From NCBI GenBank assembly GCA_918797485.1, contig CAKKNE010000001.1:434001-498000 (forward strand): DNA of 64,000 nt, read 5' to 3'. The translations under genes and the position numbers were made by a program. This DNA is from Pelagomonas calceolata. Taxonomy: Eukaryota; Sar; Pelagophyceae; Pelagomonadales; Pelagomonadaceae. The notes beneath the pieces were generated by a model, which was not told where the DNA came from, did no database searches, and worked only from the letters and a program-made list of their open reading frames with translations. Shown here in pieces: positions 14,110 through 61,869 of the stretch. Numbering within the stretch: the first letter of the stretch is position 1; the number at the start of each line of letters is the position of its first letter.

Positions 14110-16248
14110 ATGATGCGCACCGCGCTCGCCGCGGCGGCGCTCGCGACCGCGGCCGTCGCCCAGGAGGACCTCGGGACGGTCATCGGGATTGATTTGGGCA
14201 CGACGTACTCGTGCGTCGGCGTCTTCCAGAACGGTAGGGTCGAGATCATCGCGAACGACCAGGGTAACCGCATCACGCCCTCGTACGTCGCGTGGGACGA
14301 CGCCGGCGAGCGCCTGATCGGCGACGCCGCCAAGAACCAGGCGACGATCAACCCCGAGAACACGGTCTTCGACGTCAAGCGATTGATCGGCCGCAAGTTC
14401 AACGAGAAGTCCGTGCAAGCGGACAAGAAGCTCTTCCCCTTCGCGCTCGTGCCCAAGGACGACAAGCCCTACGTGCAAGTTGTATTAGAGGGCGGCGAGA
14501 AAAAAGTCTTCGCGCCGGAGGAGATCTCCGCCATGGTCTTGACCAAGATGCGGTCCACGGCCGAGGCCTTCCTCGGTTCCGAGGTGAAGCACGCCGTCGT
14601 CACGGTGCCGGCGTACTTCAACGACGCGCAGCGCCAAGCCACGAAGGACGCGGGCACGATCAGCGGCATGACGGTGCAGCGCATCATCAACGAGCCTACC
14701 GCCGCCGCCATCGCCTACGGCATGGACAAGAAGGAGGGCGAGAAGAACATCCTCGTCTTTGACCTCGGAGGTGGCACGTTCGACGTGACGCTCCTGACGA
14801 TCGACAACGGCGTCTTCGAGGTGCTCGCGACGAACGGCGACACCCATTTAGGTGGGGAGGACTTCGACCAGCGCATCATGCAGTACTTCATCAAGATGAT
14901 CAAGAAGAAGGACGGCAACGACATCACCAGCGACAAGCGCGCGGTCCAGAAGCTGCGGAGGGAGGTCGAGCGCGTCAAGCGCGCCCTCTCGAACCAGCAC
15001 CAGGCGCGCCTCGAGATCGAGTCGCTCTACGACGGCAACGACTTCTCCGAGACGCTGACGCGCGCGCGCTTCGAGGAGCTCAATTTGGACCTCTTCAAGA
15101 AGACCCTGGGCCCGGTCGGCAAGGTCATGGAGGACGGCGACCTCGCGAAGACGGAGATCGACGAACTTGTCTTGGTCGGCGGGTCCACCCGTATCCCGAA
15201 AGTCCAGTCGCTGCTCAAGGACTACTTCGGCGGCAAGGAGCCGAGCCGCGGCATCAACCCTGATGAGGCCGTCGCGTACGGTGCCGCCGTGCAGGGCGGC
15301 ATCCTTTCCGGAGACGACTCGGCCGAGGTCCAGGATTTACTTCTCTTGGACGTGACGCCGCTGTCCCAGGGTATCGAGACCGTCGGCGGCGTCATGACGA
15401 AGCTCATCAGCCGTAACACGGTCATCCCCACGAAGAAGTCGCAGACCTTCTCGACGTACCAGGACAACCAGCCGGCTGTGTTGATTCAGGTCTTCGAGGG
15501 CGAGCGCTCGATGACGAAGGACAACCACTTGTAGAAATGCGGCGTCCGCGACCCCTTCAAGCCATCGACGCGACCACTCGACTCACCGGTTGATTTTCAC
15601 ACAGGCTCGGCAAGTTCGAGCTCACCGGCATCCCGCCGGCGCCGCGGGGCGTGCCCCAGATCGAGGTGACCTTCGAGATCGACGCGAACGGTATTCTGCA
15701 AGTCAGCGCCGAGGACAAGGGCACGGGCAAGGCCGAGAAGATCACGATCACGGCCGAGAAGGGCCGCCTGTCCGAGGAGGACATCGAGCGCATGGTCCGC
15801 GAGGCCGAGGAGTACGCCGACGAGGACAAGAAGGTCAAGGAGCGCATCGACGCGCGCAACGGCCTCGAGTCGTACCTGTACAATGCGGCGTCCGTGATTT
15901 GGTGGCGCCACCTCGACGCCATCGACGCGACGCCAGCTCGACGGCGTGAGCGCCCGACTCACTGGTTGATTTCGCAGGTACAACATGAAGAACACGCTCG
16001 ACGACGACGAGAAGGGCGTGGCCGACAAGCTGTCTGCTGATGACAAGGAGGAGATCGAAAATACGATTAACGAGGCGCTAGACTGGCTCGACGAAAACCC
16101 GGAGGCCGACAAGGATGAGTACACCTCCAAGCAGAAGGAGGTCGAGGCGATCGCCAATCCCATCATGCGGAACGTGTACCAGGGCGCGGGCGGCCCCGGC
16201 GGCGGCGAGGAGGAGGAGGACTACGACTTCGGAGATGATGAATTATAG
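14110..16248 (+). CDS. BiP: ER Hsp70 chaperone BiP, two introner-derived introns
   Basis: Exons are 14110-15530, 15605-15877 and 15978-16248, giving 654 residues. A signal peptide ([18 protein letters not shown]) is followed by the Hsp70 ATPase domain ([29 protein letters not shown]), the linker with [11 protein letters not shown], and the substrate domain. The C-terminus is DDEL, an ER-retrieval signal. BiP folds secretory proteins in the ER lumen and drives translocation. The apparent stop after MTKDNHL is the start of an intron: splicing gives [12 protein letters not shown], which is invariant in Hsp70. The second junction restores SYLYN-MKN. Both introns belong to the introner family. Confidence 0.95.
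15531..15604 (+). mobile_element. introner-derived intron 1 of BiP
   Basis: This 74-base intron starts GTAGAAATGCGGCGTCCG and ends CCGGTTGATTTTCACACAG, the introner right end. It keeps the inner core GCCATCGACGCGACC, but the second arm of the core hairpin is lost. The left end is shared with intron 2 (AATGCGGCGTCCG). Confidence 0.85.
15878..15977 (+). mobile_element. introner-derived intron 2 of BiP
   Basis: This 100-base intron starts GTACAATG and is followed in the exon by GTACAACA, a 6-of-8 match that I read as the aged target duplication. The 5' splice site GT is the first two bases of the upstream target copy, so splicing restores CTG TAC AAC. The inner hairpin is GCCATCGACGCGACGCCAGC then TCGACGGC, and the right end is CACTGGTTGATTTCGCAG. 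Confidence 0.88.
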
Positions 16249-16420
16249 TTCCTGTGCCCCATTCCCTCACGTAAAAAGATTTCTAGTACTCCTCTGTTGA
16301 CCTGCCCGCCGCCAAGTTGCGTCCGTCCAACTCGTCCAGCTAGTTGCATAACACCAGAGTTACACGGTAAGGACGCGCGGGGTAGTGGAAAAGGGAGTAG
16401 GTCGTTCGTCGTCTGAAGAT

Positions 16421-16654
16421 CTAGAGGCCCTCCGGCGGGGTCAGCACGGCATCAATCACATGTACAACGCCGTTGCTTGCGAGGATGTCGGGGATAGCCA
16501 CGCCGGCCCCGTTGATCGCGATCGGGTCGAGCGTCACCTCGACCGTTTCGCCTTGGACCGTAGGAAGGACGCCTTCCGTGAGGTCGGTCGAGAGCGCCGT
16601 GCCGGGCACGACGTGGTAAGTCAAAATTTTCACAAGCTGATCCTTGTTCGCAGG
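16421..16654 (-). pseudogene. truncated fasciclin (FAS1) domain fragment
   Basis: On the minus strand, residues from EPANKDQLVKILTYHVVPG through VVHVIDAVLTPPEGL and a stop form the C-terminal half of a FAS1 domain, including the conserved H-box (YHVVPG) and the closing VIDAVL. FAS1 domains mediate adhesion and are usually secreted. The N-terminal half is absent: upstream sequence changes at about 16655 into an unrelated TPR gene on the opposite strand. It could also be a last exon, but the opposing gene leaves little room. Confidence 0.6.
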
Positions 16655-17108
16655 CTCTATACTCGTCGTGCAGAACAACCTTGCGGGCTCCTACAGATCA
16701 CTTGGGAGACTTGACGACTGCCTACGCACGCAGCGAGACGTATACTCTGGGCGTTTGAAGCTTAACGGCGAGGAACATGAAATGACCCTCCGAGCGGCCA
16801 ACAACTACGCGATGCTTCTTAGTACTCTACGGCGCTTCGAAGAAGCGAAGAGAGTACTACGCAAAGTGGCGTCCGTAGCGCGACGTGTTCTCGGTGCTGA
16901 ACACGCGCTCTCGTTGTCTCTGCGCGAGGATCTCTCTCGCGCGACACTGGACGGAGACTCCTCCGGCAATGAAAAGCGCCAGGCGCTTCAGATGCTCGAG
17001 GACACTGTCGTAGTCATGCGGCGCGTTTTGGGTCCGGCTCACCCCGACGTGTTGCGTGCTCAGAGAAAGCTGGAGGGCTATCGCAAGGAAATTCCTCCTG
17101 CCGCGTAA
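16650..17108 (+). pseudogene. 5'-truncated TPR (kinesin-light-chain-like) family fragment
   Basis: The frame reads from VVQNNLAGSYRSLGRLDDCL through several TPR helices and ends at 17108. It resembles the C-terminal half of the MYND/RING-CH/TPR protein at 12351-13499, including the pattern VARRVLGAEHxLSL followed by VMRRVLGPAHPDVL. The zinc-finger half is missing. The break falls at about 16655, where the FAS1 fragment begins on the other strand, so this looks like a rearrangement junction rather than a working gene. Confidence 0.55.
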
Positions 17109-17142
17109 GGACTTGCGTAGGACTTGCGTAAGGACTTGCGTT
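17107..17142 (+). repeat. short tandem repeat after the TPR fragment
   Basis: The unit AGGACTTGCGTA occurs three times with small changes, directly after the stop of the TPR fragment. A short AAAG repeat follows at about 17182-17197. Both look like simple 3' untranslated sequence. Confidence 0.7.
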
Positions 17143-17198
17143 CCTAAAAAACATTAAGACATCAAAACCACAATAGTTACACAAAGAAAGAAAGAAAG

Positions 17199-20100
17199 CT
17201 AGTGCTGGACGCGCGACCGCCCGCGCCCACGCCCTCGCCCACCACGCCCGCGAGACCGCGGCACGCGCGCGCCGCCGCCGTTGCTCGTCGGCTGGTACGC
17301 CGCCGCGTCGCCCCGGAGCACCTTAAAGCCCGCCGGCTTCTGGTAGGCCTGGGCGTCGCCGTGCGTCGCCGACTCGTCGTGGTCCTGGCCCGTGGAAACA
17401 ACGACCGGCGGCCGCTCCTTCTTCTTCGGCTTGGGCCGCGACTTCGGCTGGAAGGCGGCGCCTTTGTTCGTGCTCCGCTTCTGGGCGTCCCCGAGAGCCT
17501 CGGCGCCGAGGACCGCGCGCGACGCGTCGACGAACGCCCGCTCCCTCTGGTCGACTTGCGCGTCCGGCGTCACGATCTTCCGTAGCAACAAGGCCTCGAG
17601 CTCGCTTCGTAAAATCGACGCCAGCGTCGCGACCTTGGGCGGCGCGCGGAAGTGGACCTTCTCGTCCACAGAAATGATGCCCCGCTCGTGGTGCACCGTG
17701 AGCCGCCCCCCAAACAGGATCAAAGCCAGCGGCGCCACCGTCGTCGCGTCCCGCACATAAACCTTGGCCGTCCGCACGATCTCCCTGTATACAACATAGC
17801 GGTGATCTAGTGCAGTAGCATCAAAGCATAAACAACAGGGATGCAAGTACGCCGCGTCCTCGGGCCCGTCGTCGAACCTAGGCCTCCTCCCGCTCTCCTG
17901 GCGCTCCTTGATGCACCGCTCGACGTCCGGGTCGCACCGCGTGAACGCGCACTCGCCCGCGGTCTTGCTCTTGGACGAGGGCGTGAAGGACGGCTCCGCC
18001 TGCGAGGAAGCAGTGATGAGGGGTGAATCGCGGGCGGCGCCCGACCCCACGCCGTGACACTCGTAAGGAAAGGACGCGGCCGCGGACCGAGACCTCGGGC
18101 GCCTTCTCCCCCAACAAGCGCACGTCGCGCGGCGCCACCAACACGTTCGGGTAGAGCCCCGCGCACAGTAACGCTTTGAGTAACGCCGCGGACCGCGCCG
18201 ACGCGTCCGCCGCGTCCGAAGCGGACTTACTCCCAGATTGGGAATCAGGCAATAAGTCCGCAGTACCATTCAACGCCTCCCGCAATGCTTTATTACCTTT
18301 CCCGATGAACCCGATGGACTGCAGGTGCCGCGCGAACTGGTCGCGCGACTGGTCGATCGCCTTGAGCGTCTGGCCGCCGCAGAAGTTCGCCCGCGCCCAG
18401 CGGAACTCGTTCCGCGACTTCTTCTGCTGGCGCCATTCATCAAAAGCCGCGACGCCCGTCAGGTGGTCGGAGTACGCAACAGCTAGATGCCGCCTCGCCT
18501 CGTCCGCCTGGTCGCGCATATCAAATGGAGCGACGAAGATGCTTCGCGGCGAGGTCATGACCGCGGCTAGTGTTAGGGCCGCTCCTGTCGCGCCGAGCAT
18601 CGCACCCACCAACAAGAGCTTGCCGACGCGCGGCTCGACCGGTAAAGCTGCCAGATGAAATCCTAGAGCGGTCAGCGCCGCGACCTTAGGAGAGCCGTCA
18701 CTGTCCATGGGCTCCAGCGCGTCGATCTGCGCCAGCAATTCCAGAGCCCGGTCGACGGCCTGCGCCGTCGGCGGACTTACGGCACCTCGCAGGAACTTTT
18801 TGGGATCCCCTAAATCGAGCACCAGGATCTGGAGCACGAGATCTTCCAGCGACGTCCGCAGGATCTCGGGCTGAGGATACGCGTCGAACTCGCCGTCGTG
18901 GGCCAATCTCGTCACCAAATGAAAGGCGACGCCCGGTCGCACGCGGCCGGCGCGGCCCCGCCGCTGCCGCGCCGCCGCCCGCGACACGAACACTTCCTCC
19001 AACGTCGCTAACCCCCGGTCCGCGTCGTACCTATTTTCTTTCACGCGCGCCGCGTCGACGACGTAGACGACGTCGTCGATCGTGATACTCGTTTCAGCAA
19101 TGTTCGTCGAGACGACGATCTTACGAGTACCTTTAGGCGCCCGCCGAAAGATGGCCTGCTGGTCGCTCGTCGACAGCTGGGAGTGCAGGGCGTGGATCGT
19201 CGCCCGGCCCTCGAGCACTTCCGACGAGCGCAGCTTCTCGACGGTCGCCGTGATCTCGGCTAAACCAGTCACGAAAATGAGGATGGCCCCATCCTTATCA
19301 TCTTTAACCGATTCGAAGCAATGCTTCGTCCACGGATCACTACCCCGCACAAAGATGGCTTCGACGACGCGCACGATCAATGCGTAATTCACGCAGGCCG
19401 GATCCAACGCAGATAAAGAAGAGTGGACGTCGTCGGGGTAGTCCTTGAGCTTCGCGGCCCAGTCGCGCTTCGTCAACCCGACGAGGGCGCTCTTCGGCTG
19501 CGAACCACGACTCGCCTGCTTCGAGCGAAAACTCCCGACGGCGCACTCGTCCCTCGCGTCCACGCGCAGCCCCGTCAACGCTAACGCATCTTCGAGGTAG
19601 AAGGCCTGGACGGGGTGGGCCCGGCCCGGAATTTCGGCCAGGTACGGGTCGAACTGGCGGAAATAGTCGGCAAACACTTGCGCATTTAAAGTAGCGCTCA
19701 TGAGGATGAGTTTGAGCTTCGGTCTTTTGGTAAGTAACCGTCGCAGCACAATAAGTAGGAAATCGGTAGCGACGTCGCGTTCATGAACCTCGTCCACAAA
19801 AACGTGCGATAACGTCTTGAGTTCCCCGTCGCACTGTAGCCGTCGCAGTAACACGCCCGTCGTACACAACAGTATCCTCGTATCCGTACTTCGTTTGGCC
19901 TCGCCCCTTATACTATACCCGACGGTCTTCCCTATTTTTTCTGCTCGTTCTTCGGCGACGCGCTGCGCGACGCCCACGGCACTGATTCTTCGAGGTTGCG
20001 TCACGACCAAGGAACACCGCGCGCCTTCTCCTCGATCGATGCAGTCATCTAGCACCAATTGGGGCACTTGCGTGGTCTTGCCCGCACCGGTGTCGGCGCT

Positions 20101-22203
20101 CACGACCACGACTCTTCGCTCCCTTATAGCCTTGACGACACTTGAACCGCGCTGGTAGGCCGGTAGCTGCTTCCTTTGAGCCAATAACCGCTTATACGTC
20201 TCGTCCTTGCTTCTCTTGGTATCTAACTCCTTCTTCAGCTTCTTGGATTCTTCCAGAGCTTGCTTCGTGACCGCGGGATCCTCCGGCTCCTCCTCGACCA
20301 CTTCCGGTGGAGGGTCGTTGTTCGCCTCCAAATAAGGATGTTGTTGTACTTGTTCATCGATCTGCGCCATGATATCCAGGAGCATCGGCGACGGCGCGAA
20401 GTTCTCGGGCATGTTGTTCACCGACAAACCGCGCTTCTCGCCGATGCGGCGCACGCCGTGGAGGCGCTCGGCCTCCTGGATCGCTTGCTGCCAGGCCCGT
20501 TCCGTATCATTGGCCTGGAAGAGCCGCTTGCATTCCTTCGATACTGAAGCCTGCTTCAGCAGCGCTCTACAAGCATCCTCGGGCGCTTGTAGCTTCGCCG
20601 CTAGACATGATGCTCGTTCATCGAACTCCGCGCCGAGCTGGCTCGGCATAACAATATCCTCGTCCGTCTCGTCTTCATCTTCAACGACGCCTTCCGCGCG
20701 CAACGCCTCGCTCCTTGCTCTCTCAGCATCGCGCCTCGCCTGCACCAAGTCCTCATTGGAATTAGAACTCTTGAGGAACGCGACGCGCGACGCCTTGTCG
20801 GCCCTCGCTTGTGCCGCCGCGTCGGCCTCTTTTTGTACTTTGTCGGCCTCGCGTCTTTCGGCCTCGGCCTTACAAATGGATGCGGCCTTCTCCTCCTCCT
20901 CATCCACGACCGGTGCCACGCCTTCTCCTAAAAAACGGGCGTGCGATTCATGGACCGCGTCGCGGAGCCACTCGCACGCTTCATATAAAGCGGGCCCTTC
21001 GATGCTGGAGACGTGCTTGCATAATTGTAGATGCACGTCCCGCAAGACGCCGGGCGGCAGCAATGCGTTCCGAAACAACAACCGGGGCGGCCCGCGCACG
21101 GGGTAGGCGTCCTGACCACTCACAAAACACTCGAGCGACGACTTCACGCTGCCGGCCGGCTTCCGCAGCTCCAGGAACTCGCGCGAGTCGAGGCTGATCT
21201 TCACACAATCATCAACGAGTGAAATAGCATCGTCGCCGAAGATGGCCTTGAGGGCCTCGACTTCGTCGCTCCGCTCCTGCGCGGCGAGCTCGGCCTCGAC
21301 GGCGTCCGACGCTCTTAGTGAAGAGCAGCTCTTCTGAGTCAACAGATTCAAGGCCCGCCGCTCGTCGCCCTTGGCCTCCGATAACGCTTGCTTGGCGTCC
21401 TTGCTGTCGAACCCCAATGCTTCCAAGCCACACGCCGCCGTCGCGAGCTGCCAGTCGATCGACCCCGCGAGCTCGACGCCACCTGAACTTCCGGTGACGA
21501 CGGTGACCCTTGCAGCTTTATTATTTCTTCTGAGGGACTTCGTGAGCTCGGCTTCATCACACGTGACGCACAACCAATCTAATGCAGCTGACAATGTGTT
21601 GGTTTTAGAATGTTGGAGTGCTTGCCGCGCTCTCGAATCTTTGAAGCACAGTCTTTTAGTTAAATGGGTCCAGATGGCCGCCTGCTCTTTCCCGGGCGGC
21701 GGGGCGTCGTCATCGATCGGTGGCGGTGGTGCTGGGGGTTTGGGCGGCATGGCGTCGCCCGTCGGTAATGGTTTCGGTTTTGGTGGTGGCGCGGGCACCT
21801 TGGACGCCTGTTGAGAGCCGCTGCCGTCGTCGACCACACCATAGCTCAGCAACAACTCCTCGACCAACTTCGCGTGGTCCTTCGACATGTCGACCGCTTC
21901 CAGCGCGTTGACGTCCACGCCCTTGAGCAGGCGCCGCTGCCGCTCGAGCGCCGCCGACGTGGCCGACTGCGGCTTAGGGTCAGTCTTCTTCTTGGCAGCT
22001 CGTACGGTGAGTCCACCAATAACGCGCGCCTCGGGCTTGGCCTCGTCGCGGCGCCCCTTGCCGCCGCCGCGGCCGCGGCCCTTGCCGCCCTTGCCCTCTT
22101 TTTTCTTGGATGGCGGCTTCCAGGTGCTGAACCGCGACCGCGTCGACTTGTTGATGACCTCGGCGTTCTGCTGCTGGCGGCGGGCGTTGTTCATTCGACC
22201 CAT
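17199..22203 (-). CDS. DHX57/DHX29-like DEAH RNA helicase with UBA and RWD domains
   Basis: Exons are 18061-22203 and 17199-17999 (1,647 residues), with a 61-base intron that removes a frame break. Order: a Gly/Arg-rich basic N-terminus, two UBA-like regions, an RWD domain around residues 330-450 (DEVEALKAIFGDD, YPVRGPP), then the helicase core with GAGKTTQVPQL, DEVHERD and the QRRGRAGR motif, the winged-helix/ratchet region, and an OB fold (VVYREIVRTAKVYVRDAT, LILFGG). The final 30 residues are RGRGGRGRG. DHX57/DHX29 enzymes act on structured mRNA and ribosomes in the cytoplasm. The ATG at 22203 was chosen because the frame above it opens only at non-ATG codons. Confidence 0.9.
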
Positions 22204-22729
22204 GTTTGCGAGATCTTGTCGCTGCAGCAGTGTGCAGTGCTTGCGAGCAGTGTTTGCGAGCTCTTCGCTGCTGCTATTGGTGGGCGCGCTGCGACCGGTG
22301 GTCGACGCTCGCGCGCGCTTGTTGCGGCTTTTCAGTGTGCAGTGTGCAGCTAGCACTGCAGACCAGCGCGCGGCGAAGCGGTCGAACGCGCTGTAGAGTG
22401 GGCGCAGCGCTCTATTGAATAGGTCAACGCACTAATGTGCTTCGCGTGCGCTACACAGCAGTCGCGATCGTCATCGATCAAAAAGCTTGTGCGGCTAGTG
22501 TCTTACATGCCGCTAGCTGCGAGCCGGCGCGCTCGCCTCAAATCGCTGCAAGCATCGCTCTGCGTGCGTGGTGAAACACATACAAAGCACGCCACAGTTG
22601 CTGCGAACACGCACGCGCGTCGCTGTAGCCAGCTTGTACGGCTGTAGCCAAAGCGAGAGCAGCCAGCTTCGGAGAGCGCGCAGCGATTGCGGCCGAAGAA
22701 GCGCAGCGAGCGGAGAGACACAAACTACG
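22204..22729. promoter_or_regulatory. divergent promoter region, helicase / HEAT-like gene
   Basis: This 526-base stretch between opposite starts contains one strong copy of the recurrent palindrome at 22494-22517. The rest is open in several frames without any domain. Confidence 0.5.
22494..22517 (+). promoter_or_regulatory. recurrent intergenic palindrome, copy 2
   Basis: It reads GCTAGTGTCTTAC then ATGC and CGCTAGC. It is about 290 bases from the helicase start and 213 from the HEAT-like protein start. Confidence 0.75.
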
Positions 22730-26131: not shown

Positions 26132-26148
26132 ACTAACACTGTGTTGTC

Positions 26149-27176: not shown

Positions 27177-28401
27177 ATGGGGCAGCACTGGCTCCTCGTC
27201 TGCGCAGCCGCCCTGGCTACAGATGTCGCGCCAGAGATCGAGGAGCTGGCGCGGCGGCGCCTGAGGAAGATGGGCGTCGTCTTCCTCGAGGACGACGACG
27301 CGGTGAACATCCAGTCTGCCCTGTGTGCAATTCAACCAGTGAGTCGGGTTATCGCCGCCCTGTCACAGAGACAACATCGCGTCGATGGCGTGGGGCGCCC
27401 GACATTTGATTTCCGCACAGGTGCATCGAAGAGATACATAAGTACAGCCTCTGCCTCCAGACCTCGGCCTGCCCGGTGCCGCTCGCTAAGGCGCCGGATC
27501 GCGCGACGACGCCGCGCTGCGAGGGCGCGCCGACGGACGCAGCTATCACACAACTCGTCGAGGAGCGGGTCCGCGCGACCGGCGACGATGAGGCAACGGC
27601 GCGGGCGTACCTCACGTCCTACGACCTCTGCGCGAAATGGGGCGACGAGGAGACGAAACAGCCCGACCGCAGTCGCCGGACGCGCGAGAACTGCCCGGCT
27701 GGCTGTGATTATGTTACGAATTGCCAGCGCGGTTCGGTGTGGGAATTACTGCTCGATGGCGTGGAGGTCCCGCCAACGCCATCGTGACGGCGCCTGCTCA
27801 CTGGTCGACACACAGGTACGCCCCCGAAATCTGGGACCCGGTCTACAACTGGACGAACAAGGACGGAGTGTTGCGACTAGTCAACCGCACGACCGAACCA
27901 AACCTCCTCGACGACGACAACACGGAAGCCATGTGCGACCGCGTCTATTCAACGACGAAGCCCTGGAGCTGCGCCTGGGGCGACGCCTCGGACGGCCTTG
28001 GGGCTGCGCCCATGCGCTGGACGGATAATAACGGGGCGCCAGGAGCTGCCGGGGACGACGACTCGCCGATGGGCGTGTCCTTCAACCTCAAGCACAAGAT
28101 CAACGCGTGCGGATGCCAGTTCTGGGACGCGCTCTCGTGCCAGATCGCGCACCGGTGCAACGGCACCCTGGCGGAGGGCCAGAAGGTCTGGCTGGCGGAC
28201 GGCTCGAATTGGCCCTGGCGCGACGTCGAACCCGGAACGCAGCTCCTGGGCGGCGCGCGGGCCAGGCGGTGGCCGGCAGAGGCGGACATGCGGCCGACGC
28301 CGTGCCTGGACATGTGCGCGTCGTCGTCGGCCGCGGCGACGGCGGCGTCGGCGCTCGCTCTCGTGGCCGCCGCCGCGGGGGTGGTGGTAATGACTTGGTA
28401 G
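27177..28401 (+). CDS. secreted Cys-rich protein of unknown function, two introner introns
   Basis: Exons 27177-27313, 27421-27738 and 27816-28401 give 346 residues; both introns have introner ends and joining restores one frame. Residues 1-15 are a signal peptide (MGQHWLLVCAAALAT). The mature part is rich in Cys and Trp (YSLCLQTSACP, CPAGCDYVTNCQ, CGCQFWDALSCQIAHRC), which suggests disulfide bonding in the secretory pathway. The last 25 residues are hydrophobic (ALALVAAAAGVVVM) and could be a membrane or GPI-anchor signal. I do not recognise the family. Confidence 0.7.
27314..27420 (-). mobile_element. introner-derived intron, reverse orientation
   Basis: In gene orientation the intron runs from GTCTGCC through the inverted end CTGTGTGCAATTCAACC to the other end TTTGATTTCCGCACAG. 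The CACTGG-type right end is at the 5' side, so this copy is inverted relative to those in BiP, yet it still ends in a usable CACAG. The core CGCGTCGATGGCGTGG is present. With the donor at 27314 the junction codon is CA-G and the protein continues CIEEIHKYS. A GT at 27323 would also keep frame and add three residues. Confidence 0.82.
27739..27815 (+). mobile_element. introner-derived intron, short and decayed
   Basis: The element begins GTGTGGGAATTAC at 27737, a mutated inverted end, and closes CTCACTGGTCGACACACAG at 27815. The inner core GCTCGATGGCGTGG remains, along with CAACGCCATCG. The phase demands the second GT of GTGTG (27739) as donor, giving a 77-base intron and the junction SV-YAPEIW. 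Confidence 0.78.
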
Positions 28402-49029: not shown

Positions 49030-49050
49030 TCAGCACTCCCGCTCCCGCGG
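48961..49050 (-). repeat. three 30-bp tandem repeats spanning the polymerase stop codon
   Basis: Three units at 48961-48990, 48991-49020 and 49021-49050 are identical except for the last base of the third. Each contains the minus-strand coding for RERE-C and a TGA stop, so two extra copies of the C-terminal codons plus stop lie in the 3' untranslated region. The protein is unaffected. Confidence 0.95.
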
Positions 49051-51000
49051 CTCCAAGTACTCGAGGTGGAAGAACTCGAACACGTCCTTCTCCGTGCGCA
49101 GCGACGCGTTGTCCTCGACGTAGACGTCCGTGCGCTCGTCGTGCCGCGACCCCTCCGCGATGTAGATGCCGTGCTTGCCCCAGGCCCAGTGCTCGCCGGG
49201 ACCCAGCTCGCGCCCTTCCACCCGCCGCACCTTCTCGCCCGTCGGCGAGAGCTCCCAGCCCGCGCGACCCACAATCGGTTTTTGATCGGGCACGTGCTTC
49301 CAATTGCCCTCGTGAGCCTTCTTGGCGTACTCGGCCAGCGACCGCTGGAAGCCCGTGCTCCCGGACCAGCCGATGACGGCATGGGCATAAATATCCGTCG
49401 GGGCGAGGATGATGTCCAGCCGGCGGACCTGCGGCAGCAGACGTGATCAAGGGACGACGCCGCGTCGACGGCGAAGGGAGGCGACGCAATGATTCGGACG
49501 CGGGCGCGGTACGGCTCCGTGCACCTTCGGCGAGAGGCAGAAAGCGTGCTTCGTATTCAACTTGGGTAACCGGCCGCCCGCGTTCCCAAAGATCTCGCCT
49601 CCGCTGGAGCGGTGCGGATGGAGAAAGCCCGGCGGTCCAAACTGGTCAACCGCCTTGAAGAATCGCGCCATGAGTTCGTTGCCCAGCCCCGTCGGAGACT
49701 CGAACGCGTAGGCGCGCGCGTCGATGAGCGGCCCATCTAATGGCGCGTGGATGATCACGTCGACGTCGTGGCCACCGACTTTTCCGCGGCGCCAGCTGCC
49801 CACGACGGTCATGTGAAGCCCGATGAAGCGCGCGGCGCTTTCGAGGATGCCGTGAATCTGCTTCGTCTCCTGCACGTCCATGGGGATGTGCGAGTTCGGG
49901 TATGCGTCGGAGCCGCATGGAGCCAATTCCAACTTCCGCCTCAACACATCAGAGATGGGCAGCTCGCGGCGCCGGTCGACCAGGTCGCGGGCGCCTGTGT
50001 GGAAATCAAAATTTTACGGCACGTTCGTGCTGAATCGTCGCGTCGACCTCCACGCCATCGACGCGATGCCTGCTCGATGGCATGCACCCGACGCACTGGT
50101 TGATTTCCACACAGGCGGGCGCCCCGGACGCCGTGCTTCCGCGCGAGGGCCTCCATCTGTTTTTTGGTGATGCCCATGTGCCTGCGGCGAGCAATCCGTC
50201 ACCCCATCCGAACGAAGACGACTGGACGCGGCTTCGCACATCTCCGTGATCTCTTTTACGGCCACACGAACCGGATCTTTCTCCCAGAACGTGAACGCGT
50301 CGACGCGTTGCAAGGCGGGCAGGCCGCCGGTCACGAGCTGCTCGAGGTAGGCGAGCCAGCCGCCGTTCGCGCTCGACGACCGCCCGGACATGAAGTGCTG
50401 CTTCGCGAGGAGCATGCGCTGGTCCTCCCAGTTCTCCGGCGTGATTTTGGTGGGCCACGACCGAATTAACGCGATGACCTTGTACGTGAGGCCGACGGCC
50501 GTGTGCTGGCTCGCGTCGCCCTCTATACACCCGTTCTGCCACCACTCGAGCTGCTGCTTGAGCCAGCCCGTGAGTTGTTTATTTTGATCATCTGCTTTTG
50601 TAATCTTGCGCTGGCAACCGAACTTGGGCAGGACGTCGGACCGCCGCGCCGGCGCGGCCTCCTCCGGTCGTTCCTCGACGGCGCCCCAGGCGTGGGCCGC
50701 GGCGTTCTGGCGCTCGTTGCGCGCGATCGAGTCCGTGAGCCAGCGGTCGCCGACGAGCTGCGCGGCGCCGGCCTTGGCCCGCACGGTCGCGGGGTCGACG
50801 TTCTCCGCGGCGATCACGACGAAGTCGTTGCCTTCCTTGAGCGAGGCGGCTTGCGACGGCTTGAGGAACGCGGCGCCGGCGCCGATCTTCGCCTCCCAGA
50901 GCTTGCGCTGGAACGGGTTGGCGCCGATGACCGTGATTTTCGCACCGGCGAAGCAGGCTAACGGCGGCGCGGCGGTCTTGGCCTTCTTCTTGGGCGCCAT
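49030..51000 (-). CDS. family X DNA polymerase (pol mu/TdT-like) with BRCT domain
   Basis: Exons 50228-51000, 50123-50181, 49525-49994 and 49030-49428 give 566 residues. Residues about 15-100 form a BRCT domain (FAGAKITVIG, DRWLTDSI). Helix-hairpin-helix follows (MGITKKQMEALARKHGV). The palm holds the metal-binding pair in GSWRRGKVGGHDVDVIIH and the third Asp in VRRLDIILAP. The thumb shows IGWSGSTGFQRSL and ends FFHLEYLEPRE. The GHDVD motif is that of pol mu and TdT, which fill gaps in non-homologous end joining. Introns: 46 bases (inferred), an introner (128 bases with a GC donor or 116 with GT), and 96 bases. Neither the 46- nor the 96-base intron has introner ends. Confidence 0.88.
49995..50114 (+). 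mobile_element. intact introner element in the DNA polymerase X gene
   Basis: This 120-base element has perfect 15-base inverted ends (CTGTGTGGAAATCAA and its complement) and a perfect 8-base target duplication, GCGCCCGC on the gene strand, at 49987-49994 and 50115-50122. The inner hairpin has perfect 8-base arms, GCCATCGA and TCGATGGC, with a 12-base loop. It is inverted relative to the gene. Exact codon restoration (GVRGARDLV) would use GC at 50122 as the 5' splice site; a GT at 50110 also keeps frame but adds four residues. Confidence 0.95.
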
Positions 51001-54500: not shown

Positions 54501-55950
54501 CACGACCTCGCTCTCCGCCGCCGTGTCGAGCGGCGAGTTCCTGGACACGCTGATCGCGGAAGCGGCCGCCGCGGGCGCGTCCGCGGCCATCGCGTTCCAG
54601 ACGGTCGGCGTCGACGAAGCGGCGACGCTCGACCGCCTCGCCGACGCGACGGTCACGCTGGTCGTCACGACGGCGGCGCCCTCGGTCGCGACGCCACCCA
54701 AAAAGAAGAAGAGCGACGCCGTGCTCCTGGGCCTCTCGCTCATGACATTGATCGTCCTCGGCGCGGCGGTCGTCGGGCTCTGCCTCGTCGCCGCGGGCGC
54801 CTTCCTCTTCGTGCGCAAGGGCGGCCCGGCCAAGGTCGCGGCGCTCATGCTTCCCAGTGGCAAGGAGAAGAAGCACCGGAAGCGGCGGGGCCCCCTCGTC
54901 GACTTTTCGAAATTCTACTGGCCCTGCTGCCCCCCCAAAAAGCCCGAGGACCGCAAGGCCGGCCTCGTCGAGGTGCCGACGTTCGGCTCGCCGTACGCGA
55001 ACAGCGTCAGCACGCACGTCGGCTACGATTTAGTAGATGAATACCACCAGCGGGCGCACGCGAAGCGCAACGCCTGGACGCGCTACGAGAACGTGCTGCT
55101 GCGCGTCGTGAGGGTTCAGATCGTGGAAGGCGCGTACTACGAGCGGTGGAAGGACGCCGTGGCCGAGGCGGAGATCGACGACAACTGGCCGCGCGTCGTT
55201 ATCGCTCGAAGCGAGGTGCGCCAGGAGATCCTGGGCGAGCGGCGGACCATGACCCTGTTAGGCTACGGCGACGCGTACACGCGTGTCCTGCACGCCAGCG
55301 ATCCGCCTCCGGGCGTCAAGACTGACCTAGTACAAAGGTGCGTCGAGACCTGTTCGGTCGTGGCCGTGCTCCCTCCCAAAAAGTCAAAAGCGGCGAAACA
55401 AAAGCTGAAGCTCGCCGCGAAAGCAAGCATCGACCACTACACCGGGAAGATAATCGGCGAGAAGGTCCTGACGTCGAAGATGCGGGAGACGGCGACGGAG
55501 CCCGGCGAGGACGGCCCGACCTGGTACGAACGCCCCGCGCCCGGCGAGTTCGTGTGCTGGTCCGCCTCGTGCTGGGAGCCCGAGGATGGGAATGCGAACA
55601 TGCTGCACGTCACCGGCAAGGCCGATATCCAAGCCGTTGTCGTCGGCCCATGGGCGGGACCGAGCTTTCCGGGCAAGCGCGAGGGCCCCTACGCCGCCGA
55701 GGCAAAGAAGAGGGAGGCCGAAGACCATTACATCGAAGACGACGCCCCCGCGCCCGCGGATCCGAAAAAGGCGCTCGACGCCGTGCCCGCGAACAAAGAC
55801 GGCCAAAAACTCATCCGCAACGAACAACTCAAGAAGGTGCTCAACCAGCGGACGACGGCCTTCGAGGCGAACCAGATGGCTATCGAGAAGAAGCGCGCCG
55901 AGCGCGCGAGGACACCTGCTAAGGTGGCGCCGGCTGAGGAGGAGACTTAA
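51574..55950 (+). CDS. Pro/Ser/Thr-rich single-pass surface protein
   Basis: This 1,458-residue protein has a signal peptide (MRLLLLAVAAAAQ) and about 700 residues of repeats of the type PSxxPTxxP, broken by two Cys-containing islands (near 65-100 and 430-450) and further Cys modules near 600-680 and 770-860. Such stretches are usually O-glycosylated and extended, as in algal cell-wall proteins. A SEA-like folded segment follows (about 888-990). A single membrane span at about 1050-1079 (LLGLSLMTLIVLGAAVVGLCLVA split across it) is followed by a 380-residue cytosolic part with basic and coiled stretches. An outer-surface or wall anchor with intracellular contact is my inference. Confidence 0.8.
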   Translation: MRLLLLAVAAAAQAPSAAPTYETLPPTRSPSAVPTYRTPAPFAAPPDDYDRSKFDHDPGSCANYGMDEVYTGDALGLGGGLLAGEDCCFVYEYNDCTHNPTGLPTTVPSAVPTALPSALPSVSSNPSSVPTASPSGVPTSKPSGHPTRPPSSVPVSDPTAAPTSIPTSPPSEIPSNPPTPFPSEFPTTVPSSAPTSPPTLPPTPAPSAPPSIIPPPTAKPSRAPTWGGSRPPTTAAPSRLPSSLPSSAPTSLPTSLPTVLPSAAVSRPPSSIPSALPTPTPTSAPTAFPTRPPSSAPSPPPTSQPTAVPTTPPSPRPSVLPTSEPTAVPTTPPSPTPTTPPSSTPTSDPSAIPTSPAPSVTFTPTAVPSAQPSRSPTTTRYPTAAPTSLPSPAPTTQVPTSLPSTVPSPAPTLLPSLLPTVAPTTGDCLASITDACNCTYVLAEYATTLAPTARVVPTVAPTPRPSTPAPTTPVPTPRPSLTPYPSAVPTGDPSGVPTSPPSSTPTAPPSSQPTRVPTVPPTSTPTSQPSSAFSALPTPAPSRAPTAVPTTEPTPTPSASAAPSALPSSRPTTIPSARPTGVPTAAPTSRPTQPPTSAPSPAPTARCPAHVWLEGDPTTTGAVTAVTGSGKEGPEAVTSADGASHRLDGPWEGGVDPASGVDACCRFVQTPCPTPVPTAVPTALPSPAPSVPPTGVPTSPPTGTSPPSMVPVAVPTAVPTSLPTSLPTSLPSTLPTSSPSRYAETPGPTPAPSPRPSPAPTPAPTPVPTPAPSGCRCVMDFGFTRGVGGFAYRGDGLLYGALPAVNPAGTKWTHGDDALLDGFAWAEYLASRAFYRSAAVKARSTNVTDMDGKCIYRKAPEPSAAPTPRPSVPPGVPQPTAAPTGAQAVVEVSAAVVLTGIDAADFNSDPNQQEAFAQSILAHLPESLAGAEVTDIVAAAARRRRLQASVAVSYTIIVRQDAAAVTDGGVAILSDITTSLSAAVSSGEFLDTLIAEAAAAGASAAIAFQTVGVDEAATLDRLADATVTLVVTTAAPSVATPPKKKKSDAVLLGLSLMTLIVLGAAVVGLCLVAAGAFLFVRKGGPAKVAALMLPSGKEKKHRKRRGPLVDFSKFYWPCCPPKKPEDRKAGLVEVPTFGSPYANSVSTHVGYDLVDEYHQRAHAKRNAWTRYENVLLRVVRVQIVEGAYYERWKDAVAEAEIDDNWPRVVIARSEVRQEILGERRTMTLLGYGDAYTRVLHASDPPPGVKTDLVQRCVETCSVVAVLPPKKSKAAKQKLKLAAKASIDHYTGKIIGEKVLTSKMRETATEPGEDGPTWYERPAPGEFVCWSASCWEPEDGNANMLHVTGKADIQAVVVGPWAGPSFPGKREGPYAAEAKKREAEDHYIEDDAPAPADPKKALDAVPANKDGQKLIRNEQLKKVLNQRTTAFEANQMAIEKKRAERARTPAKVAPAEEET

Positions 55951-55977
55951 GTTATTATTGTGTAACCCGAACCCACC

Positions 55978-56481
55978 CTAGATAGACGAAGCCCGGTCGC
56001 GCGTCTCCGGGAGGAGAAGCGCGGGCGGGCTCGCCGGCGGCGCCGGCGCGTAGTCTTCACCCAGGAGTAACGGCGACTCGAGGTCGAGGAGCAGATCGTC
56101 TCGGTTCGCGCGTCCCGCCGTCGGTAACTGGATCCGCGGCCACTCCATGCGCCGGCAGCGTTTCCCCAGGACGACCACGACTAGCGCGGACAGACTCGCG
56201 CACATCCCCACGAGGACCTCGGCGGAGAGATGCCTCAAGGCAAACTCCTTGGCGCAGTGCGTGACCGAGGCATCTTCGCATCCACAGTCCACGTGACTCG
56301 CGTAACACCCCGCCATGCACGCGCCTTGTATGGCCGAGCACAACGTCGCCGAAGCATTCTTGTTCAGGCAGAGCATTTCGCCCAAATTACACGCGGATTG
56401 GCAGTTCGCGAGGGTCGTGGTCGGCCCCGCCGCGGCGGAGTGGCACAGAGCAAGCGCCAGGACCCACTTGAGAGTGGCCAT
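55978..56481 (-). CDS. small Cys-rich single-pass membrane protein
   Basis: Started at the ATG at 56481, the 167-residue protein has a signal peptide (LKWVLALALCHSAAAG), a lumenal part with about ten Cys (CQSACNLGEMLC, CMAGCYASHVDCGCED), a membrane span (VLVGMCASLSALVVVVLG) and a cytosolic tail with dileucine-like patches (LLLDLESPLLL). The Cys spacing suggests a small disulfide domain; the family is unknown. It lies 27 bases from the convergent Pro/Thr-rich surface protein. Confidence 0.7.
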   Translation of the reverse strand: MATLKWVLALALCHSAAAGPTTTLANCQSACNLGEMLCLNKNASATLCSAIQGACMAGCYASHVDCGCEDASVTHCAKEFALRHLSAEVLVGMCASLSALVVVVLGKRCRRMEWPRIQLPTAGRANRDDLLLDLESPLLLGEDYAPAPPASPPALLLPETRDRASSI

Positions 56482-56685
56482 GGATTTGGCGGTCAAATAA
56501 TTCGATAGCTCGAAAGGGCGCGGCGTATGTGGCCACAATAAGCCCCTATGCAAGTTCAGGCACCGGCACTTGCGGCGGTCGGCACGGGAGTCGCTTAAAA
56601 AAAAAATCTGACCCGAGTCACAGCGCCCTAGCCTCACGCAGCAAAATTGGCTAGTCTCAAAACTACTCTCTCACAACTAGACAAG

Positions 56686-59600
56686 TTAGCAAAGCCCCCC
56701 CCGCTCCATCTCGTACACCACCCACGGCGCCGTCTTCGCCCGGTCGATGTATCCGCGCCAGCCCTCCGCGAGGTAGAGGTACTTGTTCGACGTCACCGAC
56801 GCGTCGACGCTCTGGACGGAGTGGGGCCACATGAGCGGCACGTACAGGGCGTCGCCCGGCTGCAGTTCGACGGTGGCCGCGTCGCGGGCAGCGCGCGCCA
56901 TCTCCTGCGGCGACCCCGTCGGCCAGTGCTTGTGGTTAATATCCGGCTGCAAATCCCAGACAGTCGCCGGAGGATACACCGTCACGTTCTTGCGCCCGCG
57001 CAGCTGGAAGATCACGTTCTCGTAGCAGTCGACGTGCGTGGGATACGCGTAGGCCGAGCCCAGTCGCAGCGACGTCCACGCGAGGTCGAAGCCGCTCTCA
57101 CCAAGCGCGCCCTCGAGCACGGCGCGCGAGGCCCGGTCCGCCTCCTCCAACAGCCGCGGCAGGGGCCCGTCGCGCATCGCCGCCCCGTTCGGGTCCGCGA
57201 GCGTGCCGCTCGCCTCGGGCTGGAACCGGTGCCGGTCCGTCACCAACAGGTACAGCGCGGTCGTGTTCCCGTAGGGCAGCGTCGCCTCGTCGAGCAGCTC
57301 CGGCTTCGCGGACCAAGCCAAGAAGTCGCCATACGTCATGGGCGCGGAGTAGATCTGCTGGGCCGCGTTCCGGGCGCGGTCGTAGGCCATCGCCACGACC
57401 CTGGTCGCGTCGTCGTCGGGGCCCCGCGACAGGTCCTCCGCAAACGGCTTTACAACATTCCTCAAGACGGCCGGCTTCTTCGAGAGCAGGGCCTCGCCGA
57501 TGTCTTTCGCTTCCGCGATGGAAGCTCTGGGCCGCGACGTGCCGCGGCACAAGCGTCGGACCTGGACCGAAGCGCTGTCCGCGTCGTAGGGCGCGCGCCG
57601 CAGCGTCCGGTCGCACCAGGTCTCGAGTGCTTTTGACACTTGCGACGCGACCGGCGCCCGCGCGCCGAGGGCTATGCGCGCCAACGACGTGTCGTTGAGG
57701 TGGAAGTCACACGCATCCACCGGAACACCATCCACCAGCCCGCCGGGCGCGTGGGCGCAGGACGCCGTGGCCGCGCGGCAGGCGCCGTCGACGCCGACGT
57801 CCGGGTGCCGCGCCGCGACCGTCGCGCAGAAGGTGCGGTCGCAGGCCCGGCACGCCGTCGCGGCGGCGTCCAGCGTTTCGTACGACACGAACGGTTCGGC
57901 GTCCTTCGCCGATGATAGTCTTGTACCGCTCACCCAGCGGTCGAGCGCAAAGTCAGCAGCGATTGCGCCCCTGGCCAGGAACAGCTCGGCCAGGTCGTCG
58001 TCGCGGGGCGCGGGCGCCCGCATCTTCCCGTCGAAGCCCTCGACGCCGCGCGGCACGGGGATCAGGGGCCGGTAGCCGCCGCGGCGCCGGCTCCGCGCCT
58101 CGTACCTGCCAATGGTTTCCATCGACGGCGCGTCGAAGCGCAGCGCGTCGCCCCGCTCTTCTAGCAAGTTCCAGGCCTCCTGCGCGGCCATCCTCTCGGC
58201 GTCGTCGCCGAACAATGCGAGCGGCGCGTCCGGCGTCGGCGTGAGCGTGTTCGGCGGCTCCGCCGGACTCGCGAGATCGGTCCACGTCTCCCCATTCAAC
58301 CAGGGGTACTCGGCCTCGAGCTGCGAGGGCGGGCCGCCCACGCCGTTCAGGGCGAGCACGTCTCGGAGTACCGAGGTCTTGATCACTTCATCCACACCTC
58401 CGATCGTGCCCGTCGATGGCACGATCTCCACCTCCAGCAGCCAGGCCCGCGCGTCCGCATCTAATAAGAAATCTAAGCGCCAGTGGCAGAACAGGTGCCC
58501 CTCCGTCCGGGCCTTCGACCGCGACTCTAACAGCGGCTCCCGCGAGGCCAGGAAGACCATCGTCGCCGCCTCGCGGATTTGATCTTCGACGTCGCTCCAG
58601 GCCACGCCGGCCTGCTCGAAATGTTTCAACAGCCTATCCGTGGTCCAGACGCGCTCGGCCGCGTCGAAGGCATCGCCCGCTAATCTCTGATTCACGAGCC
58701 CGTTCGTCAGATGCGCCAAGAGGTCGCCGTCTTCCCCGTGGTCCGTCTCGGAATCCCCGTAGCCCGAGTAGGGGTACGTCGCGAGGAGCACGAGCATCTC
58801 ACGGTGGATCCAGACCTCGAGTGGAGCTAATGATGATACGGAAATATACACGCCAAACGAAAACTTGGCGTCGACGACGCCCGCCGCCGCGTCATTTAAC
58901 AGAAAGGGCCGGTCCACGTACCGCTGCAGGATGCAGTTCGCGCAGCCCTCGAGCTCCGACCAGCGCGTGATGAGCTTGATGCCGGCCCCGAGCTCCTGGC
59001 CCGGGTCCTTCCTCAACCACAAACCGCCGAGCCGGTCGCTTTTGGATAGTGCTCGCTCCCGCGCGATGTCGTCGGGCAGCCACGTTCTGGGTAGGAACTT
59101 GGTAGCTCGGTCGCCGACGGCGTCCCTCAACCGATCGAGGAGCCGGTACAAATTGTCCTTGGTGCCCAGGAGCTGCGGGTTCGGCAGCGCGTTCGCCACC
59201 GTGTGCTTGGCCAAGTTGGCGTAGAATAGGGCATGCTCGTCGAAGTGGCCCAGCAACCAGATCGCGTCCTCGGCGCCGCCCATCCTTTCTCCTGAAAGGC
59301 ACTCGACGTAGCCCAGCCGCAGGAAGAGCTGTCTCAACAACTCGTACTCCTCACTATCAAAATAATTCGTCCCGTGGTAGAACCGGAAGGCGCCGCGCGG
59401 CCCCTCCAGTCCCTTCTCGCGCATCGCCTCTTCCAACGCGCCGCGCGCGCTGACGTTGCAGAAGATGGACTCCGCCAATTCATCGGCGATGAGCGTCGCG
59501 CACCGCGGCCGCCCGTCCCGCAGCTCGCCCTGCGGCTCCCCGATGTGGAGCTCGTCGCAGGCTTGTTTTCCCACGTTCAGCGGGTCTTCGTGAAGGAGGT

Positions 59601-59703
59601 TGGCCGTGATCAATACTTCCCGGTCGTCGACGAAGATGCTGGTTTGCGCGTGGAACTGGGGCTGGGCACTTCGCAGCAGCAGTACCAAGATTGGGAGACG
59701 CAT
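56686..59703 (-). CDS. fusion: tubulin-tyrosine-ligase-like domain + cupin_8 (JmjC-like) oxygenase
   Basis: This 1,005-residue protein starts at the ATG at 59703 with a probable signal peptide (MRLPILVLLLRSAQPQFHA). Residues about 110-480 are TTL-like ATP-grasp (LGTKDNLYRLL, GLWLRKDPGQELG, CILQRYVDRPFLL, CHWRLDFLLDADARAWLLEVE). Residues about 740-1005 form a cupin_8/JmjC-like domain with the iron-binding pair in THVDCYEN (about 888) and a distal His in MWPHSVQS (about 958). TTL enzymes ligate amino acids to proteins and cupin_8 enzymes hydroxylate; their fusion suggests a two-step protein modification. A secretory start is odd for tubulin as substrate. Confidence 0.85.
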   Translation of the reverse strand: MRLPILVLLLRSAQPQFHAQTSIFVDDREVLITANLLHEDPLNVGKQACDELHIGEPQGELRDGRPRCATLIADELAESIFCNVSARGALEEAMREKGLEGPRGAFRFYHGTNYFDSEEYELLRQLFLRLGYVECLSGERMGGAEDAIWLLGHFDEHALFYANLAKHTVANALPNPQLLGTKDNLYRLLDRLRDAVGDRATKFLPRTWLPDDIARERALSKSDRLGGLWLRKDPGQELGAGIKLITRWSELEGCANCILQRYVDRPFLLNDAAAGVVDAKFSFGVYISVSSLAPLEVWIHREMLVLLATYPYSGYGDSETDHGEDGDLLAHLTNGLVNQRLAGDAFDAAERVWTTDRLLKHFEQAGVAWSDVEDQIREAATMVFLASREPLLESRSKARTEGHLFCHWRLDFLLDADARAWLLEVEIVPSTGTIGGVDEVIKTSVLRDVLALNGVGGPPSQLEAEYPWLNGETWTDLASPAEPPNTLTPTPDAPLALFGDDAERMAAQEAWNLLEERGDALRFDAPSMETIGRYEARSRRRGGYRPLIPVPRGVEGFDGKMRAPAPRDDDLAELFLARGAIAADFALDRWVSGTRLSSAKDAEPFVSYETLDAAATACRACDRTFCATVAARHPDVGVDGACRAATASCAHAPGGLVDGVPVDACDFHLNDTSLARIALGARAPVASQVSKALETWCDRTLRRAPYDADSASVQVRRLCRGTSRPRASIAEAKDIGEALLSKKPAVLRNVVKPFAEDLSRGPDDDATRVVAMAYDRARNAAQQIYSAPMTYGDFLAWSAKPELLDEATLPYGNTTALYLLVTDRHRFQPEASGTLADPNGAAMRDGPLPRLLEEADRASRAVLEGALGESGFDLAWTSLRLGSAYAYPTHVDCYENVIFQLRGRKNVTVYPPATVWDLQPDINHKHWPTGSPQEMARAARDAATVELQPGDALYVPLMWPHSVQSVDASVTSNKYLYLAEGWRGYIDRAKTAPWVVYEMERGGLC

Positions 59704-59791
59704 GGTTGTCCGAGCAGACAGTCTGATCAGGTCAGACAGGGCCGAGGACAGGAGAGCGCCGCCCACGACGCGGGCAGCCTCGTTGCTTGAT

Positions 59792-59815
59792 TCTAGTGTC
59801 TTACGTACCGCTAGC
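59792..59815 (+). promoter_or_regulatory. recurrent intergenic palindrome, copy 7
   Basis: It reads TCTAGTGTCTTAC then GTAC and CGCTAGC; the first base is changed. It lies about 90 bases upstream of the TTL/cupin gene start and 72 bases beyond the 3' end of the TylF-type gene. Confidence 0.72.
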
Positions 59816-59886
59816 GTTGCGTGCGTATGCGAGGAGGTTTTTGAGCCAGATTCGCGGCGACACCACCCGGGGGAAACAGGAATAGA

Positions 59887-61869
59887 CTATGCCTCCTTAA
59901 TCCAAGCCATCGCGTTGCCGTCGACGAGGTGGAGCGGTAGGTGCTCGATGCCGCGGTCGCGACGGAAGTCTACCACTGCGGCGCGCGCGGACGTGTACTG
60001 CCAGTTGTTGTGAACGACGATGCCGCCGACCTGTGCACAAATCAACCAGTGAGTCGGGCCCCCTGAATCGAGCGGAGAGAGACCGCACCGCGACGCCATC
60101 GAGCTGGCGTCGCGTCGATGGCGTGGACGCGCCGCGACAATTTGATTTTATGCACTGCCACAAACCGCGACTTTGTCGTAGAGGTTTGACAGCGCGTCGA
60201 TCGTCGACCGGTACATGTCACAGTCCATTCGCAGCAACGCGATCTGCTCCGTCGGCAGGATGGGCAGCGTCTCGTTGAAGAGCCCCGCCGCGATCACGAC
60301 CTTGTCATCGAAGACGCCGTATCTCTTAAACGTCGCCACGACGGCGTCGGACCCGCCGACATGAAAATTCTGGTAGGCCCACCCGTCAGTATCTACGCCA
60401 TCGTTTTTGTCGGCCGCCGGGAAGCCCACGAACGTGTCGGCCACCAAAATCTTGCGGCCGCCCGTCGGATCCAAGACATCCACGACGCCCTTGCTAAAAA
60501 TCGACGCGCCACCGCGCCAGGCCCCACATTCCACAATGTCGCCGGGTACCTGGTCGTTAACCAAACCCTCGATCATTGCCTGCAACCAGTCCAGCTTGTG
60601 GACACCCACCATGGTGTGGCCGTTCCAGCCAGTGGTACACGGGCCAGCAAGCCCGGGGTCATCGGGGTTCACGTTGTCGAGGTACAACCAACCCACCACA
60701 GCGTCGCGCAGCAATTTTATGAAGCGGCCCTGGGGCGAGTCCCAGGGAGTAGTCGGTCGTAATGGAGGCGCCGCGACGAACGTCGAGAAGTCGCCCTCCC
60801 CGACCGTCGCGTCCGTGTCCTTCCGCCGCAACCGCGCCGTCAGCCGGTGGGACCCCTTGGCCTGCTCGAAGCCCGTTAAAACAGCGTTGTACGTATCGGC
60901 GAAGCACGCCTCGCCGGCCGCCTCGGCAGGCGGATTCACGTCCGCATTACCCTCGCCCAGGGACGTCACCGCGATGCAAACCTCACCGTCTATCGGAGGC
61001 CTGAATGCGCCCGAGACCTTGACTCGTTGGGCGTCGAAGAAGAGTGCCCCATTATGTAATACGAAGTACACCGGGTAGAAACCGTCGAAGGACACGACTG
61101 GGGAGGAATCGTGAGCTCTGTGTAATCGCTGATCCAACGGCGTGGCCTTTCTTGTACGCTCCAAGGCTACCCGATGCTCGACTAAGGTCAGGTCCATCTC
61201 GCGCCACAGATCCAGAGCGGCAGCGACCTCTCGCGCGGTCTCAGTCAGGTTCGACGACCACGCGGGCACCTGCAGCGTGTGGTTCTCCGGCGGTACGCCG
61301 TCGTCGTCACCGAGCTCGAAGCACCTTTCCGCGTCGCAGACCGTCCGCTTTACTTGAATTGGTAATTCGATGTCCACGTGCAGCGGCGACTGCCCCACCC
61401 AGCTCACGGGATCGTATTTCTCAAGGTCGTCCCTCACGAGCGACACGCCGGGCGAAGCCAAAGCCGTCGCGTCGGCGGCCTGGCCGTCCTTCGCCGCCTG
61501 TGTGCAAATCAACCAGTGAGACGGGTGCTTCAGCACGGCCAGGTCGCGCGGTGAGAACCGGGGTCGCATCGAAAGCGCCGCAAACTTTGACTTGTGCACT
61601 GTACTTGCCCGCAAATGTTGGTTCACAATGATCGACATCGCGCCGCCGACGCAGTTGTCCTTGGCCTCGGGCGTCTCCGTCGGCGTGCAGGCCTGCCGCG
61701 CCGCATCCAGAAAGCTCTGGTCCTGGTGCAGCCTTAACCTCGTGGGCGTGTTGTCCACCGTCAATTCGAGGTCCAGTAGTACGGCGCCGGGCGGCGGCGT
61801 GACATCCTGGGCTGCTGCCCACAGGCACCACAGTGCTGCCGCCCATAGCGGTCGCATTGTGTCGCGCAT
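59887..61869 (-). CDS. secreted/Golgi TylF-type methyltransferase, two introner introns
   Basis: Exons 61600-61869 (or 61609-61869), 60166-61497 and 59887-60030 give 581 (or 578) residues. A signal peptide (PLWAAALWCLWAAAQ) leads into about 300 residues of unknown beta-rich sequence. The C-terminal 230 residues are a TylF/macrocin O-methyltransferase domain: GDIVECGAWRGGAS, VADTFVGFP, RMDCDMYRSTIDAL and, after the second intron, VGGIVVHNN. TylF enzymes methylate sugar hydroxyls with SAM. The secretory leader suggests the target is a surface glycan. The frame would end at VCGSA without splicing. It shares a promoter region with a PAPS sulfotransferase. Confidence 0.85.
60031..60165 (-). mobile_element. 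introner-derived intron 2 of the TylF gene
   Basis: This 135-base intron begins GTTTGTGG and is followed in the exon by GTCGGCGG, an aged target duplication. The donor GT is the start of the upstream target copy, and splicing gives YDKVA-VGGIVV, which fits the TylF family exactly. Ends are CAGTGCATAAAATCAAA and TGGTTGATTTGTGCACAG. The inner hairpin is GCCATCGA ... TCGATGGC. Confidence 0.9.
61498..61608 (-). mobile_element. introner-derived intron 1 of the TylF gene
   Basis: In gene orientation the left end is CAGTGCACAAGTCAAAG and the right end is CACTGGTTGATTTGCACACAG minus its first base pair. Two donors keep the frame: GTGCAC at 61599 (102 bases) and GCAAGT at 61608 (111 bases), the latter being the textbook GC-donor consensus. 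The intron contains no stop in the main frame. Confidence 0.82.

Follow-up and report, generated by a model that had tools for sequence, protein, structure and literature searches.

The seven introns considered here lie in four genes of a 64,000-nucleotide stretch of the Pelagomonas calceolata genome (contig 1, 434001-498000; hereafter the window) and are, with a probability of about 95%, introner elements, i.e., short non-autonomous cut-and-paste DNA transposons (miniature inverted-repeat transposable elements, MITEs) that become spliceosomal introns upon insertion. In the proposed mechanism, a transposase acting in trans would insert the element and duplicate 8 bp of the target. Where the coding-strand sequence of the target is GYNNNNNN (Y being a pyrimidine), the GT or GC that opens the upstream copy of the duplication would provide the 5' splice site, with the AG at the close of the element acting as the acceptor. 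Because CACACAG stands at both termini, within the inverted repeats, either end could serve as the 3' splice end, whatever the landing orientation. The spliceosome would then excise the element along with one 8-bp copy and restore the mRNA exactly; a predicted introner intron is one copy of the target duplication plus the element.

The whole assembly (32,445,274 bases, 8 contigs) was searched for the family. The exact 15-base end CTGTGTGGAAATCAA was found 1,562 times, and GGTTGATTTSCACACAG, with at most one mismatch, 1,256 times, the reversed control giving 0 in each case. Complete elements, 185-215 bp long and with a perfect 15-bp sequence at each end, numbered 179. The family has roughly a thousand copies, and hundreds of near-identical ones are spread over all six nuclear contigs. 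The initial annotation of the window, made from its letters alone, had proposed a DNA-transposon-like introner family supplying at least seven introns in four unrelated genes and had anticipated further copies elsewhere in the genome, and these proposals were borne out by the inverted ends, the 8-bp duplications, the copy number and the frames restored by precise removal. The elements are bounded by 15-bp terminal inverted repeats, CTGTGTGGAAATCAA...TTGATTTCCACACAG, and range from 57 to 206 bp among sampled copies, with a main subfamily of 203 bp whose members are mostly 90-98% identical to the consensus. The sample consisted of 110 elements with duplications of at least 6/8, drawn mostly from contig 1 and including, as a second set, 40 loci that come chiefly from contigs 2-6. 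The 8-bp target duplication was perfect in 61 of the 110 and matched at 7/8 positions in another 29, as compared with chance frequencies at random positions of 0.0001 for 8/8 and 0.0015 for at least 7. Of the inner palindrome reported initially, the GCCATCGA/TCGATGGC motif was present in 101/110 sampled copies, with both arms in 60 (0.6 in shuffled sequence). The subterminal regions are unlike each other (AACCAGTG... versus AAAATTTTACGG...), so that the orientation of an element can be read; members of the 203-bp subfamily within coding sequence lie both ways relative to the host gene (16 versus 13).

Evidence for a role in splicing comes from the strand on which the duplication starts with GY. 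For each sampled element, an empty site was reconstructed by removing the element and one 8-bp copy and joining the flanks; a codon-usage model trained on open reading frames of the window, independently of splice signals, then picked the strand and frame in which these flanks are coding. A clear frame ran through the empty-site junction in 88 of the 110 elements. On the coding strand, the duplication started with GT in 65 and with GC in 23, i.e., with GY in 88/88, and 25 of these cases belonged to the second sample, an independent one, nearly all of them lying on other contigs. In all 88 coding copies, the GY...AG boundaries on the coding strand coincided exactly with those of the empty site. 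As the coding strand is invisible to a transposase, this contrast with the antisense end (GY in 31/88) bears the signature of a splicing filter, and is evidence that the copies surviving in genes would be those that can be spliced exactly. Where the two copies of the duplication differed at base 2, the intronic copy showed a change from C to T in 6 cases and the reverse in 2, which hints that GC donors may later be improved to GT.

It remains very improbable that these are ordinary MITEs in which GY reflects a target preference of the transposase, and which are otherwise tolerated in genes, splicing having no general role. Some symmetric preference does exist: base 7 of the duplication is a purine in 68/88, and the antisense end starts with GY in 31/88 (35%, against a background of 18%; p=0.0016 for the first 63). 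This preference resembles the T2/A7 target bias of Hermes, a hAT transposon (PMC8721813). Base 2 is a pyrimidine in 88/88, a count confounded by splicing. However, a target preference cannot follow the coding strand, on which GY was invariable. Genome-wide, the outward duplication carries GY at 987/1,562 ends, and flanking 8 bases with neither G first nor C last occur at 31 of the 1,562 against ~212 expected under independence, i.e., about 7-fold more rarely. Retention would moreover break most host frames, that of the Hsp70 gene BiP included, the frame remaining open in just 9/88 copies. A model put forward for introner-like elements of fungi, in which RNA-based introners spread through reverse splicing, would account for copies that act as introns scattered in coding sequence, but it predicts neither perfect 8-bp duplications around perfect inverted ends nor any orientation relative to the host gene other than sense, and is exceedingly unlikely. 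The chance that the introns are ancient ones shared by duplicated, related genes is negligible, the pairs of introns in three of the four window hosts (in principle a product of gene-internal duplication) being the only support found, against hosts that are unrelated (BiP, a family-X polymerase, a TylF methyltransferase and an orphan) and near-identical copies that number in the hundreds across all six nuclear contigs.

Regarding the branch point, the initial annotation had pointed to CTCAC, and to a fixed right end carrying the complete 3' splice module. Neither proposal was upheld: CTCAC near -20 was present in 23 of the 220 sampled ends, TTGAT in 199, the A of the latter motif lying at -12 and thus within the inverted end itself, and both ends of the element would serve as 3' splice ends. 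TTGAT is the better candidate branch-point motif.

Allowing up to 3 mismatches, the window contains 8 occurrences of CTGTGTGGAAATCAA where 0.42 are expected, and no shuffle reached this count. Seven family loci were matched by BLAST with the genome-wide element collection (15554-15604, 15908-15973, 27321-27420, 27749-27784, 49995-50114, 60031-60148 and 61498-61588). The other BLAST matches of the window to this collection were a handful and far weaker (19-52 bp, E 1e-6 to 1e-3). A weak hit at 62665 was left out of the family count, as it has no partner end and sits in an open frame. The predicted introns and the genes hosting them are as follows.

14110..16248, plus strand: gene of BiP/GRP78 (Hsp70 of the endoplasmic reticulum), host of introns 1 and 2; spliced protein of 654 residues with C-terminus DDEL
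15531..15604, plus strand: predicted introner intron 1, 74 bp, GTAGAA...CACACAG
15878..15977, plus strand: predicted introner intron 2, 100 bp, GTACAATG...TTTCGCAG; duplication GTACAATG/GTACAACA, 6/8
27177..28401, plus strand: gene without recognised family, 342 residues when spliced, host of introns 3 and 4
27314..27420, plus strand: predicted introner intron 3, 107 bp, GTCTGCCC...CCGCACAG; both ends recognisable (27321-27420)
27727..27815, plus strand: predicted introner intron 4, 89 bp, GC-AG; GCGCGGTT plus worn element
49987..49994, no strand assigned: target-site duplication copy GCGGGCGC, exonic for the minus strand
49995..50114, no strand assigned: introner element 5, 120 bp, with perfect inverted ends on both sides
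50115..50122, no strand assigned: target-site duplication copy GCGGGCGC, whose minus-strand GCGCCCGC gives the putative GC donor
49995..50122, minus strand: predicted introner intron 5, 128 bp, GC-AG, within a family-X DNA polymerase gene
59887..61857, minus strand: TylF-type methyltransferase gene, 574 residues when spliced, host of introns 6 and 7
60031..60165, minus strand: predicted introner intron 6, 135 bp, GTTTGTGG...GTGCACAG; duplication GTTTGTGG/GTCGGCGG, 5/8
61498..61608, minus strand: predicted introner intron 7, 111 bp, GC-AG, donor GCAAGT

Precise removal restores the host frames. In BiP, removal of intron 1 gives a junction in conserved sequence that aligns without gap to human BiP, the unspliced reading running into an immediate stop, and removal of intron 2 gives LESYL/YNMKN (the slash marking the junction), likewise conserved and gapless against human BiP. 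Removal of introns 3 and 4 together restores a single open frame of 342 residues, in which no known domain was matched. The donor at 27727 brings the downstream exon in frame and lies exactly 8 bases ahead of the element. Six of the initially proposed intron starts are retained here, that of intron 4 having been placed 12 bases too far right, at 27739, in a locus that is itself real. In the polymerase gene, removal of intron 5 yields KHGVRGA/RDLVDRRRE; the palm region downstream of it gives a weak match to the Pol beta palm and matches Pol mu (2ihm) with E=8e-4. The predicted 3' end of this intron is AATTTTGATTTCCACACAG, the TGGTTGATTT end being on the 5' side, which illustrates the use of the opposite terminus. 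Intron 6 leads to an in-frame stop if retained and, if removed, to DKVA/VGGIVVHNNW inside the TylF domain, residues 376-571 of the spliced protein matching PF05711 with E=2.8e-52. The inverted ends are shared less completely than initially described, since introns 1 and 2 (15531 and 15878) keep the right half only, their left inverted end being gone, and the left end of intron 4 is worn; in intron 1 the duplication has decayed to 1/8 matching.

Other features of the window were also noted. The frame of the minus-strand polymerase gene changes upstream of MGITKKQ (upstream of 50177), which probably denotes an additional intron unrelated to the introners. The segment 32001-36000 shows a strong AT skew (-0.33) within a minus-strand open frame of 1,952 codons, unlike the remaining window.

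Several points weigh against the interpretation of these introns as introners. The splicing of the copies is inferred from DNA sequence. In the window, a full 8/8 duplication is found only at 49995, those of the other six of the seven copies being decayed. Intron 7 (61498-61608) has a length divisible by 3, and the reading frame stays open through it; it is the least certain of the seven, its predicted splicing resting on family membership and on the GCAAGT donor. Lastly, among the spaced end pairs and the loci with unusual ends that were examined, no autonomous partner carrying introner ends was found.

The transposase with the same ends that the initial annotation envisaged was thus sought in vain. 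Four end pairs of contig 1, spaced 0.6-6.4 kb apart and considered as long, possibly autonomous elements, were resolved into separate short elements. Profiles of KDZ and P-element transposases had no match in the genome, and since the control genomes were also unmatched, these are weak negatives; the Merlin/IS1595 transposase profile had no match in the genome either. The hAT profile gave one match in the genome, at C4:4499880-4502042 on the minus strand, a single-copy gene with 721 open codons that is flanked by members of a repeated gene family in inverted arrangement. The 10 kb examined around this sole match contained no introner ends, so that no element with such ends was found to enclose a hAT transposase with its dimerisation domain. 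A protein search with this hAT-like gene returned only the gene itself, and the PDB no match. It is conceivable, if unlikely, that this single-copy gene, near-domesticated after the loss of its own ends, moves the introners in trans, in which case its target preference, pyrimidine and purine at bases 2 and 7, respectively, would place a donor on both strands.

Ends with unusual subterminal bases numbered 87; of 40 loci examined around such ends, 5 initially had no partner, and in 3 of these, a worn partner end was located within ~140 bp. Two loci, C2:2107337 and C2:3814426, present perfect introner ends with no partner within ~600 bases, and one of these ends adjoins the same gene family as that flanking the hAT-like gene. 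A 66-base chimeric DNA query retrieved one locus only from the genome, this query being too insensitive, and viral contigs contained no 20-base end and no element with paired ends. Besides, one introner copy, whose 8-bp duplication GTCGGCCG is perfect, lies at 1432-1539 of NZGT01000054.1, which is filed under 'Spirochaeta sp. MED672', a marine metagenome-assembled genome. This contig looks algal, as it encodes an acetyl-CoA carboxylase in addition to carrying the introner copy, and is probably a pelagophyte contamination of that genome.

The initial annotation had tentatively placed the window in an Aureococcus- or Micromonas-type lineage, which came near: the organism is a pelagophyte, P. calceolata, and Aureococcus, although not the source itself, belongs to the same algal class. 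Huff, Zilberman and Roy are said to have described in 2016 (Nature 538:533) introners of Aureococcus anophagefferens that carry one splice site and co-opt the other from the target duplication. The P. calceolata family resembles them in being made of short elements with terminal inverted repeats, fixed-length target duplications and a single splice site of their own, the second being taken from the duplication. The mechanism has already been reported for Aureococcus introners, and the P. calceolata family is hence a further case. The ends of hAT elements typically read CAG...CTG, unlike those of the P. calceolata introners, which read CTG...CAG (CTGTGTGG...CCACACAG). The 8-bp duplications, in which base 2 is a pyrimidine and base 7 is rich in purines, are reminiscent of hAT-superfamily MITEs and of the T2/A7 bias of Hermes (PMC8721813). 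Background on introners is given in PMC9860276 and PMC7789003. Families with terminal inverted repeats and target-site duplications are known from other eukaryotes (Gozashti et al., 2022), e.g., family 1 of Symbiodinium microadriaticum, which differs by its 4-bp duplications from the 8 bp observed here (PMC9860276). The published genome of P. calceolata RCC100 comprises six nuclear contigs of 32.4 Mb in addition to the plastid and the mitochondrion, and an intron-length peak near 210 bp is noted as introner-like (Guerin et al., 2022; PMC9481584). This peak equals the 8 + 203 = 211 bp predicted here for the main subfamily, and the family is perhaps already described in the supplement of that article.

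It has long been asked how introns are gained by genomes in bulk, and transposons doubling as introns are the best current answer. P. calceolata offers a very clean case, with a compact, near-chromosome-scale genome, a young subfamily and exact 8-bp duplications, in which the landing site is seen very cleanly to supply half of the splice signal. The strand-specific GY rule separates the preference of a transposase from selection for splicing without RNA data. Besides, one testable candidate can be named for the missing transposase, the hAT-like gene at C4:4499880-4502042. If this gene did drive the introners, the genome of P. calceolata would be an intron-generating system.

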